The position numbers and the translations under genes were made by a program. A stretch of DNA of 53,990 bases. Source: Sulfurovum sp. (GTDB lineage Bacteria > Campylobacterota > Campylobacteria > Campylobacterales > Sulfurovaceae). Each line of letters begins with the position of its first letter. The stretch's first letter is position 1. The notes under the pieces are model-generated. The model did not search any database, was not told the DNA's origin, and saw nothing but the letters and a program-made list of their open reading frames with translations. Positions 43,841 through 49,138 of the stretch are shown piece after piece. The stretch is taken from positions 1 to 53,990 of the forward strand of contig JAAXPZ010000029.1 of NCBI GenBank assembly GCA_012329065.1, given 5' to 3'.

Positions 43841-44548
43841 TTGAAAATATTAATAATAATGGCAGTTGCTATGGGTGTGAGTATGACAAGTGCTGATACT
43901 GTGGTGGATGGGATGAAAAAGGGGATGAAGATGCCCAAAAACTATCGCATGGTTCCAATGAGCAAGGCAGAGATCCTACAGAAGGGTAAAGCCAAAATGT
44001 TTTGTCCTGTGTGCGGTATGACTCTTCCTGTATTTTACCGTACAAATCATGCTGCTCATGCAGATGGAAAAATGCATCAATACTGCTCTATATACTGTAT
44101 GGTTGATGAGATGAAGCATGGCAAGAAGATTGCAGATGTTAAAGTAGTTGATAACACTACCCTTAAATTTATAGATGCAACAAAGGCATACTATGTTGTT
44201 GGTAGTTCCAAGCCTGCTACAATGGCAAAGAAGATAAGTAAATACGCTTTTGGAGCAAAAGAGGTGGCAGAGAAGTTTAGCAGTGAGTTTGGTGGTAGGG
44301 TGATGGAGTTTGATGAGGTTCTTGAGCTTGCCAAAAAAGATTATGAGAGTGATACAAAAGCCAAAAAGATGCGTCAGGCAAAGATGGCAAAAATGGGTCA
44401 GAAGGTGTATAAGAAAAAATGTAAAGAGATTACTCAGAAGTTTGCTACAGCGGCAGAGGCAAAATCTCACATCAAGCAGAGCGGTGTTTGTGGAGAGATC
44501 AAGGGCAAGCCACTTCAGGCGGTTGGACTATATCTAATAAGCAGATGA
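43841..44548 (+). CDS. NosL-like exported protein with C-terminal cytochrome-like module
   Basis: 235 residues; TTG start 43841 set by AAGGAGA at 43830-43836. Short signal peptide to about residue 18. NosL-type core: FCPVCGM (Cys55, Cys58, Met60) and HQYCSIYCM (Cys82, Cys86), with FIDATKAYYVVGS, as in NosL copper-binding lipoproteins that help load copper into nitrous-oxide reductase. No lipobox is seen. The last 50 residues (186-235) form a separate module with Cys194, Cys217 and an LQAVGLYL helix, like a small cytochrome c domain that lacks CxxCH. The same module occurs at the N-terminus of the next gene. No nosZ is in the window. Confidence 0.82.
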   Translation: MKILIIMAVAMGVSMTSADTVVDGMKKGMKMPKNYRMVPMSKAEILQKGKAKMFCPVCGMTLPVFYRTNHAAHADGKMHQYCSIYCMVDEMKHGKKIADVKVVDNTTLKFIDATKAYYVVGSSKPATMAKKISKYAFGAKEVAEKFSSEFGGRVMEFDEVLELAKKDYESDTKAKKMRQAKMAKMGQKVYKKKCKEITQKFATAAEAKSHIKQSGVCGEIKGKPLQAVGLYLISR

Positions 44549-44603
44549 TATATTTTTGGTCTCCTTGTCAGTAGGATTGTGACTCATATCGACATTCTTG
44601 TGA

Positions 44604-44609
44604 TATAAT
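44604..44609 (+). promoter_or_regulatory. Putative -10 box of the second NosL-like gene
   Basis: TATAAT preceded by TTGTGA, 27 bases before the start codon at 44637; suggests separate expression from the first NosL-like gene. Confidence 0.5.
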
Positions 44610-44636
44610 GCGAAATCAATTTTCAAAGGTAACATA

Positions 44637-45317
44637 ATGATAACAAGAATACTTCCACTTTTGTTACTGCTGAGTATAGTGTTTTCTGTAAGTTATGGCA
44701 GTAGTGCCAAGATTATCAAGCTCTCCCAAAAAGGTGAGAAGATAACAAGGATTTTCTGTGATATAAAAAAGCTTCCCAAAGCAGAGGGGACTATCAGTGA
44801 CCTTATGAAGAAAATATCAGACTCCAAGGCCTGTAGAAAACTCTCAAAAGCCAAGCTTGAAGCAGTGGCATACTTTGTCAGTAACGGAGCCATGAAGTAC
44901 TCCAAAAAGCAGATGCATGTACCACATGATGCTAAGTGCCCAGTGTGTGGAATGTTTGTCTACAAGTATCCAAAATGGGCGGCAATGATTGAAGTAGATG
45001 GCAAAAAACACTATTTTGATGGCGTTAAGGATATGATGAAATTTTATATATTTGATGTGGACTTTCCCTATGACAGAACCAAGATATCAAAAATGGAGGT
45101 CACCGACTTTTATACTCTCGATGCCATACCTGCCAATGATGCCTGGTATGTCTATGATTCTCTGTTTTATGGTCCTATGGGTAGAGAGCTCATATCATTT
45201 GTTGACAAACCGTCTGCAGAGGAGTTCTCTAGAGACAATAGTGGCAAAGAGATACTTAGATTTAAAGATATCACTCCCAAAAAGGTGATGGCTCTTGACG
45301 GAATAGATTTTCAATAG
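44637..45317 (+). CDS. Second NosL-like exported protein, domains in swapped order
   Basis: 226 residues from ATG 44637 with AAAGG upstream. Signal peptide to about residue 22. Residues 33-80 are the heme-less cytochrome-like module (Gly33, Cys41, Cys66, LEAVAYF). The NosL core follows with KCPVCGM (Cys101, Cys104, Met106), KWAAMIEVDGKKHYFDGVKDMMKF and YVYDSLFYGPMG. In the preceding gene the same two modules occur in the opposite order. The CPVCGM motif suggests soft-metal binding, probably Cu(I), in the periplasm. The small membrane-protein gene starts 11 bases downstream. Confidence 0.82.
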   Translation: MITRILPLLLLLSIVFSVSYGSSAKIIKLSQKGEKITRIFCDIKKLPKAEGTISDLMKKISDSKACRKLSKAKLEAVAYFVSNGAMKYSKKQMHVPHDAKCPVCGMFVYKYPKWAAMIEVDGKKHYFDGVKDMMKFYIFDVDFPYDRTKISKMEVTDFYTLDAIPANDAWYVYDSLFYGPMGRELISFVDKPSAEEFSRDNSGKEILRFKDITPKKVMALDGIDFQ

Positions 45318-46748: not shown

Positions 46749-47413
46749 TGATAACAATAGAGGCACTACAGAGATATTTTGATGGAGGAGATGAGAGGTT
46801 CTATGCACTCAAGGATATCGATCTGCATATTGGACGAGGAGAGTGTGTAGTGCTAAAGGGGGTAAGCGGAAGTGGTAAAACTACACTTTTGGGCATTATC
46901 GGAGGCTTAGATAAGCCAAGTAGTGGCAAGGTGATGGTGGATGGCGAGCCTATATCAAAACTTCCAGACCTTCATCTGTCCAATTTTAGAGCTCAGAAGA
47001 TAGGTATAATATTTCAGCACTATAACCTTATGGATCATCTGACTTCCAGAGAGAATATACTAGTGCCACTGATTCCAGTAGCAAATGATATGCATAGAGT
47101 TGAGGAGATGACTGATGCAGCCATGAAGCTTGCCAGCATATCTCATAAAGCAGATATGCAGACATCTAGACTCTCAGGAGGAGAGAAGCAGAGGGTTGCA
47201 ATTGCCAGAGCGGTGGTATCTGATCCAGATATAATTCTTTGTGATGAGCCTACTGCTAACTTAGACAGAGAGAATTCTCTAAAATTTATAGAGAGTATTC
47301 AGATGCTTCATCAGCTTGGCAAAACAGTTGTGATAGCAACGCATGATCCACTGTTTGATGATCTACCGTTTAAAAGCAGGGTGGTTCATCTGGAGGATGG
47401 GAGATTGGTTTGA
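46748..47413 (+). CDS. ABC transporter ATP-binding protein (LolD/MacB type)
   Basis: 221 residues. Walker A GVSGSGKT (38-45), Q-loop FQHYNLMDHLT, signature LSGGEKQRVAIARA, Walker B IILCDEPTANLD and switch His in ATHD. It has the size and sequence style of LolD-type ATPases that drive FtsX-like permeases. Start overlaps the permease stop, end overlaps the next gene by four bases (TTGA), so the three proteins are probably made in fixed ratio. Confidence 0.95.
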   Translation: MITIEALQRYFDGGDERFYALKDIDLHIGRGECVVLKGVSGSGKTTLLGIIGGLDKPSSGKVMVDGEPISKLPDLHLSNFRAQKIGIIFQHYNLMDHLTSRENILVPLIPVANDMHRVEEMTDAAMKLASISHKADMQTSRLSGGEKQRVAIARAVVSDPDIILCDEPTANLDRENSLKFIESIQMLHQLGKTVVIATHDPLFDDLPFKSRVVHLEDGRLV

Positions 47414-48378
47414 GCGAGATACTACTCAACAATCAGGTTATTGTCTATCTTGTAAGTGAGTCTATACTGTTTGTATTGATGCTTATTGCACTTTTGCCTA
47501 CTATCAAAATAGTTATAAAATGGAAGTTTTACAGCTTCTCTCAAGAACAGTTCGCTTTGGAGAAGAGAGCATATCTTGTTGCGACAATAGTGGATTTTAT
47601 CTTTGTAGTCAAGTTTTTTCTACTGATATATTTTGTATTTACCATAGATGCACTCTCTATTCTGGTGCCAGGAGCCATGTGTGCTGCTGGTGTAGTATCT
47701 GCCAACGATTATGGTATGCCACTACTATTCTTTAAACTGCTTATACTGTTTGTGATGCTTCTTTGGATGACACTTCACCGATATGATCTGGAGGCAAAAG
47801 AGTACCCTTTTATGCGATATAAATCGTGGTTGTTTATAGCGATATTTGTGCTTGTAGTGGTTGAGATGCTACTAGAGATCGGATATTTTACACATATAGA
47901 TACCAGAAGAGTTGTGAGCTGCTGCTCCGCACTATTTGGACAGCTTGAGGGTGCCAATCCTCTCCCCTTTGGGCTGGATATGCTTAAGATGATAATTCGG
48001 TTTTATCTCCTCTATTTTGTCAACATAGTAGCACTCATTGCAAGGTATAGAGCGCTTACAATGACCTCTTCCATACTATTTCTAATCATCTCCTACTATA
48101 GCGTCGTTTACTTTTTTGGGACATATGTCTATGAGCTTCCCACTCATAAGTGTCCATTCTGTATGATGCAGAAGGAGTACTACTTTATTGGATATTTAGT
48201 TTGGGGCAGTCTCTTTGGAGGAGTATCGATCAGTCTTGTATGGGCTATCATGGGATCACTGTTTGGTATAGACAAAAGCATATACAGAAATATTTCGGTA
48301 CTATTTATAAGTATTTTTGTGTTGATTTGTACCAGTTATGTGGTAGTTTACTACTTTAGAAATGGAGTTTTTCTGTAG
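47410..48378 (+). CDS. Eight-TM membrane protein with CxxC, function unknown
   Basis: 322 residues; TTG start at 47410 overlaps the ATPase stop. About eight transmembrane helices by eye. Cysteines: Cys91 in GAMCAAGVVSANDYG, Cys171-Cys172 in VVSCCSALFG, and Cys248-Cys251 in THKCPFCMMQKEYYFIGY. CPFC at a membrane edge recalls the thiol-oxidising DsbB/VKOR type, but the overall sequence is not one I recognise as either. Coupling with an ABC ATPase and a nearby NosL-like protein suggests a part in copper or disulfide handling outside the cytoplasm. No homologue can be named. Confidence 0.75.
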   Translation: MSEILLNNQVIVYLVSESILFVLMLIALLPTIKIVIKWKFYSFSQEQFALEKRAYLVATIVDFIFVVKFFLLIYFVFTIDALSILVPGAMCAAGVVSANDYGMPLLFFKLLILFVMLLWMTLHRYDLEAKEYPFMRYKSWLFIAIFVLVVVEMLLEIGYFTHIDTRRVVSCCSALFGQLEGANPLPFGLDMLKMIIRFYLLYFVNIVALIARYRALTMTSSILFLIISYYSVVYFFGTYVYELPTHKCPFCMMQKEYYFIGYLVWGSLFGGVSISLVWAIMGSLFGIDKSIYRNISVLFISIFVLICTSYVVVYYFRNGVFL

Positions 48379-48403: not shown

Positions 48404-48585
48404 ATTAGGAGACCACAGCACAATAGGCATGGTCACAGCTTTTTGAGGTTTTTTTGTAGGCAAGGCAAACTTTTGTAGGACTATCTGGATAATCCAAAAA
48501 AGTTTAACGAAGCATACGAGAAACCTCAAAAAGCCCGTAGGGGAAGCCTACTGTGAAAGTGTCTATTGTGCTGTGGTCTCATTAG
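48404..48585. mobile_element. 172-bp MITE-like element with 5-bp target duplication
   Basis: The element spans 48409-48580. Perfect 18-bp terminal inverted repeats GAGACCACAGCACAATAG (48409-48426) and its complement (48563-48580). Flanking direct repeats ATTAG at 48404-48408 and 48581-48585 look like a target-site duplication. Inner inverted segments also pair: GCTTTTTGAGGTTT (48438-48451) with 48521-48534, so most of the element can fold into one long hairpin. No coding capacity. It probably moved by a transposase encoded elsewhere. Confidence 0.8.
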
Positions 48586-48634: not shown

Positions 48635-49138
48635 ATGAAAAGAGTTTTGCCAATACTAGTCTCGCTAGTTATGATCGCTATTGTTGTTGGTATACTTGTC
48701 TCAATGGCAAAAGATAGTGCAACCATCACAGTAGTAAAAGGCAACCATGATATGAAACCACTTCCTATAAAGCTGGGACAAACAAACGATCCTCAGTGTG
48801 CAATGCTGATACATACAGAAGAGAATGCAGCACAAGTAGTAGCACCTGATGGCAGAACATGGTTTTTTGATGATCCAGGATGCATGGTATTGTGGCTAAA
48901 GCAGAAATCATTTAAAGATAAAGCAAAGCTTTGGGTGTACACAATAGATACCAAACGATGGACAGATGCAAGAAGAGCCAAGTATGGTGTGCGTGACATA
49001 ACAGTTATGCATTACGGGTTTGGTGCAAGAGAAGATGAGACAAATGAGACTATAAGTTTTGATGAGATGCTACTTAGAATGTATAGAGGTGAGAACCTTA
49101 GTAATCCCAAGATCCGAAAAAAGTTACTGGGCATATAG
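48635..49138 (+). CDS. NosL-related membrane-anchored protein
   Basis: 167 residues from ATG 48635 with GGAG at 48623-48626; a TACAAT at 48606-48611 may be its own -10 box, just past the MITE. One N-terminal helix (about 5-25) anchors it, soluble part outside. DPQCAMLI, AAQVVAPDGRTWFFDDPGCMVLWL and LWVYTIDTKRWTDARRAKY match the NosL pattern (C-x-M, FDD-x-GCM, W-V-x-D-x5-W-x-DA). It has a single Cys in place of the CxxC of the two other NosL-like proteins here. TauE/SafE gene follows after two bases. Confidence 0.78.
   Translation: MKRVLPILVSLVMIAIVVGILVSMAKDSATITVVKGNHDMKPLPIKLGQTNDPQCAMLIHTEENAAQVVAPDGRTWFFDDPGCMVLWLKQKSFKDKAKLWVYTIDTKRWTDARRAKYGVRDITVMHYGFGAREDETNETISFDEMLLRMYRGENLSNPKIRKKLLGI

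Follow-up and report, generated by a model that had tools for sequence, protein, structure and literature searches.

An IS5-type MITE of Sulfurovum sp. carries a truncated copy of a cruciform that recurs behind several kinds of transposon ends in Campylobacterales

A palindromic element of 172 bp lies between two co-directional genes of Sulfurovum sp., in the 53,990-nucleotide stretch of DNA analysed here (the window). It is very probably a non-autonomous MITE of the IS5 type with a truncated cruciform as its cargo, and in this reading at least six kinds of transposon ends have come to flank the core of the cruciform, whose palindromes are kept as DNA. The element and the genes on either side of it are composed as follows, in window coordinates.

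47410-48378, plus strand: upstream gene for a 322-aa membrane protein with CxxC and no Pfam or NCBIfam hit; it adjoins the downstream gene in relatives
48404-48408, no strand: left copy of the target duplication, ATTAG, from the sequence
48409-48426, plus strand: left terminal inverted repeat, GAGACCACAGCACAATAG, which recurs in the genome and in relatives
48427-48437, no strand: remainder of the outer stem, left arm, GCATGGTCACA, from the fold, with its partner arm at 48551-48562
48438-48534, minus strand: hairpin A of the cruciform core, of 37 bp with inner loop and tip, from covariance model R1 and folds
48535-48543, minus strand: mini-hairpin motif, minus-strand reading CCCTACGGG with one additional C, from alignment A1 and model R1
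48544-48550, no strand: AAGCCTA, left over from the base of hairpin B, which is otherwise absent by comparison with the full-length copies L077 and L173
48551-48562, no strand: remainder of the outer stem, right arm, CTGTGAAAGTGT, common to the 52-bp copies of the same genome
48563-48580, minus strand: right terminal inverted repeat, by its match to the left end
48581-48585, no strand: right copy of the target duplication, ATTAG, from the sequence
48635-49138, plus strand: downstream gene for a 167-aa protein (called NosL-related earlier), which is conserved among relatives (42 of 60) and has no Pfam or NCBIfam hit

A preliminary description of this site had proposed a 172-bp MITE with perfect 18-bp termini and an ATTAG duplication, which is borne out by the sequence: the inverted ends of the element (48409-48580) agree at 18 of 18 positions and ATTAG stands on each side. 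Matches to the 18-mer in the window, at up to three mismatches, are confined to these two ends, with a chance expectation of 0.06. The pairing of inner inverted segments that had been noted with them holds at 14 of 14 positions (48438-48451 with 48521-48534), and the strand of the element folds at -85.7 kcal/mol, compared with -39.8 in shuffles (z = -12.9). Neither an ORF of 60 aa nor a transposase gene was found within the 172 bp. The element thus has the inverted ends, the length below about 600 bp and the dispersed copies of a MITE, with a 5-bp duplication here and in most copies with GAGACC ends, and it is nearly certain that in its ends and its insertion it is an IS5-type MITE.

A full-length insertion sequence with the same ends, for which a search had been suggested, was found twice, both times in other phyla. 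Using a scan of bacterial genomes with an end-pairing test, a 1325-bp element was identified in Alloprevotella tannerae (L245), with ends GAGACCTTTGCACAATAG and the target duplication ACCTT. Its transposase has 360 aa, contains DDE_Tnp_1 and DUF772 (PF01609 and PF05598) and scores 233 bits against the IS5 model NF033581, the cut-off of which is 140. Plasmids searched at the protein level yielded an annotated IS5 element of 1271 bp on pDCAR1 of Solidesulfovibrio carbinolicus (L424), with the right end GAGACCACTGCACAAT and the duplication ATATC. These members of the IS5 family, in the NF033581 / IS1168-ISCca7 neighbourhood (L245, and WP_165352184.1 of S. carbinolicus), have the terminal sequence GAGACCnnTGCACAAT and a 5-bp duplication as the window element does, whereas they encode a transposase and the window element does not. 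Since L245 and L424 share ends and the 5-bp duplication, the GAGACC ends and their duplication of 5 bp can be assigned to one branch of the IS5 family. In the window's own genome, a draft assembly of 1.94 Mb in 82 contigs, the L245 protein had no match at E ≤ 1e-8, and its matches across the family were only weak ones, in 7 of 175 genomes, so the mobilising enzyme is unseen in the lineage of the window. Its gene may be absent from the assembly. Two copies at contig ends in the DeMMO3 MAG (L208 and L238) have no transposase ORF.

Searches for the 18-mer, also suggested earlier, yielded further copies with target duplications in the window's genome as well as in relatives. The own genome has 13 occurrences of the end sequence at up to three mismatches, against 1 for the reversed control. 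Four miniatures of 52 bp are found there (C25:8769-8820, C15:12725-12776, C6:98043-98094 and C34:1689-1740), each made of an 18-bp end, 16 bp and a second 18-bp end, and their flanks, ATGAT/ATGAT, ATTAT/ATTAT, ATAAT/ATTAT and ATAAT/ATGAT, match as duplications at 4 or 5 of 5 positions. A length of 52 bp is tiny for a transposable unit. A relative (G026, a JALWKP MAG) has 90 end matches (46 + 44), and its elements of 163 bp and of 81-84 bp are flanked by perfect 5-bp duplications of many different sequences. About 40 copies of the 163-bp GAGACCACTGCACAATAG MITE are present in this 1.9-Mb genome (for example L142, L184 and L197), with deletion forms of 47-84 bp, and these copies represent a recent burst. 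From the other copies with duplications, the full-length IS5 elements with the same ends and the relatives with an empty site, we infer that the window element was mobilised in trans, which supports the transposase-dependent insertion of the preliminary description.

Many relatives have the gene with CxxC and the downstream gene side by side, and their stop and start overlap or abut in G029, G035, G022, G023, G024 and G028, indicating that the insertion separates two genes whose coupling is tight in relatives. Relatives were compared for empty sites, and the gene pair is present and the element absent in these genomes and in G031, of the same genus. The spacer of G031 is the closest empty one, with about 73 bp against 79 bp in the window when the element and one ATTAG are subtracted, and its flanks align with the window loosely. 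The insertion had been called recent, which is plausible because the ends and the duplication are intact, but it is undated, as the flanking proteins of the nearest relatives are only 56-69% identical. A promoter had been placed 20 bases downstream of the element, and it had been suggested that the element could act as an insulator or change the expression of the downstream gene. A scan of the plus strand from 48586 to the start codon (48635) found no sigma-70-like site, and neither the promoter nor the effect on expression is supported. Two adjoining NosL-domain genes are located elsewhere in the window, at 43841-45317, upstream of the FtsX/ABC operon. In four genomes of another genus (G048-G051; L405, L408, L409 and L410), the same gap, of about 160 bp, holds a different palindrome, GGGACTTTAGTCCC...GGGACTAAAGTCCC.

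When the family was searched at the DNA level, positions 20-146 of the element were found to recur without the GAGACC ends. Folded, these copies give one constant design of about 265 bp, the full-length cruciform, in which an outer stem (26-31 bp) encloses hairpin B (about 100 nt), a CCCnnnGGG mini-hairpin and hairpin A (about 96 nt). The same four-way fold is found behind six types of ends, at 261-270 bp and in one copy at 291 bp. The window copy retains the outer stem, hairpin A and the mini-hairpin and has lost hairpin B; its interior is a truncated copy of a cruciform common across Campylobacterales. Covariance model R1, built from alignment A1 and covering hairpin A and the mini-hairpin, scores 111 bits on the window element (E of about 1e-22, over 48438-48542). 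It matches 98 of the 175 genomes of the family, in which copies are numerous, and 52 of 397 genomes in a sample of the phylum, where 23 of 69 genera are represented. The model of hairpin A also matches hairpin B on the opposite strand, which makes the core an inverted pair of related hairpins. At least six core copies are present in the window's genome. A bias of core copies to convergent gene ends was not seen, with 56 co-directional, 17 divergent and 10 convergent positions by crude ORF calls. Phage records gave no match to the core, and on plasmids it was found on one replicon of Sulfurovum mangrovi. The second-best match to the window interior in the own genome (C38:18682-18781) runs into the end of its contig, and with a core copy meeting a contig end in this way, the repeats probably cause assemblies of these genomes to break.

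Ends and target duplications were classified for 119 fetched core copies, a few of them fetched twice, and a few unsorted kinds of ends occur beyond the six kinds given here with the number of copies that have the duplication.

GGGCAC ends (GGGCACCTCTAA): duplication of 4 bp, about 26 of 60
ACCTGAG ends (ACCTGAGTTCGA): duplication of 5 bp, 11 of 20
TTACCGC ends (TTACCGCACCAA): duplication TA, 7 of 12
GAGACC ends: duplication of 5 bp, 4 of 6
GGCTACTCC ends: duplication TTA, 3 of 4
AGACTT ends (AGACTTCTT): duplication of 3 bp, 3 of 4

Three kinds are found in the window's genome itself (GAGACC, GGGCAC-like and TTACCGC). Copies with unrelated ends share up to 91% identity in hairpin A (L083 and L087), and that the cores behind different ends are homologous is well supported. 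Because the core stands behind at least six kinds of ends with duplications of 2, 3, 4 or 5 bp, the cruciform is probably moved by several types of transposase. A full-length element with GGGCACC ends, the commonest type, was found in none of eight genomes, with unpaired ends fetched in three, so the argument for several transposase types is drawn from duplication length and end sequence. Cores would also have exchanged their ends, and this exchange appears to be rare or occasional, since the nearest neighbours of core copies are mostly copies with the same ends. No core copy with two different ends was seen.

The stems of the core were compared among 83 distinct sequences, and 96.9% of cells are paired, while pairing drops below 50% when the partners are slid by one column. 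Two-sided changes are found in 32 of 33 stem pairs, and 0 of 500 shuffles were as high. Such strong covariation, together with the conserved inner loops, tip and mini-hairpin, would suit a core that acts as a functional structured RNA, regulatory or stable, carried by the MITEs and kept paired by RNA selection. In RNA under selection many G-U pairs are usual, being tolerated above other mismatches. Outside two conserved T-G positions, however, the cells comprise 2469 Watson-Crick pairs and only 13 G-T pairs, against 39 A-C and 43 other mismatches. No Rfam model scored above its gathering score, and the core copies are intergenic without a fixed neighbour, all of which makes a structured RNA very unlikely. 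Massive covariation with almost no G-T pairs suggests instead that the arms are maintained as DNA palindromes, and the comparison points to DNA rather than RNA as the level at which they are kept. Templated correction of quasi-palindromes probably maintains them.

Correia elements, ERIC and bcr1 are MITEs that are short, non-coding, palindromic, intergenic and high in copy number, with target duplications. To our knowledge each of these has one kind of ends, whereas the present core has at least six. REPINs and BIMEs (PMC3116915, PMC2817692) and GTAG-tagged REPs (PMC3733652) are like the core in their inverted pairs of related hairpins and many intergenic copies, but unlike the present elements they are without terminal inverted repeats of the DDE type. 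The likeness to REPINs is one ground for regarding the core as an independent mobile module that enters unrelated MITEs at their palindromic centre, by means of an enzyme of its own that recognises the core as folded single-stranded DNA; its presence inside six end types and its conserved mismatched loops and tips would fit as well. Such a module is nevertheless unlikely. No enzyme was found for it, and no intact core lies outside an outer palindrome among the fetched copies. The window's genome has three Y1 (RAYT-like) transposase genes, at C52:12249, C17:36062 and C34:3460, with no core motif adjacent to them. The GTAG tag of REPs stands at the foot of the hairpin tip in only 8 of 62 readable copies. 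The two marks of REPs and REPINs, the GTAG tag and an adjoining RAYT gene, are not general features of the core here, and a link to them is unsupported. An integron attC site was considered and dropped by eye; the arm of hairpin A has GTTA, and its partner arm has TGCC, not an AAC box. In the literature, which was partially covered, no such repeats were found for Sulfurimonas or Epsilonproteobacteria beyond general REP surveys, and an earlier description is possible.

A highly stable hairpin between co-directional genes might also never have been mobile and simply serve the upstream operon as an intrinsic terminator or attenuator. There is hardly any chance of this, and as the origin of the element it is refuted by the target duplication, the further copies at unrelated sites, the relatives without the hairpin at this site and the lack of a T-run 3' of the stem on the plus strand. 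Attenuation is possible as a side effect of the element.

The origin proposed for the window element is that of an IS5-type MITE with cruciform cargo. A transposase acting in trans would recognise the GAGACC ends and cut or copy the element, which would be inserted with a 5-bp duplication into the spacer of the two co-directional genes. The cargo would be hairpin A and the mini-hairpin of the conserved four-way cruciform, hairpin B having been deleted, and the 52-bp copies of the same genome would have lost both hairpins. The cruciform itself would be a single homologous module to which at least six kinds of transposon ends have been joined in Campylobacterales, so that several types of transposase mobilise it. 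Its near-perfect Watson-Crick arms would be kept as DNA palindromes, with correction templated by the palindrome during replication as the probable means.

A MITE is usually read as the decayed copy of one insertion sequence, bound to that transposase through its ends. Here, in 23 genera or more, one conserved cruciform core appears behind the ends of what are probably several transposase types. Two questions can be addressed by comparison alone in this system, namely what lets a non-autonomous element persist beyond its transposase, and whether DNA-level correction or RNA selection is the keeper of perfect palindromes. It is conceivable, though unlikely, that the cruciform is an autonomous structural parasite, a four-way module recognised or copied as folded DNA that repeatedly gains new transposon ends. 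If this is true, the cruciform would outlive each transposase family, as a mobile cargo that has no vehicle of its own, across the whole order.
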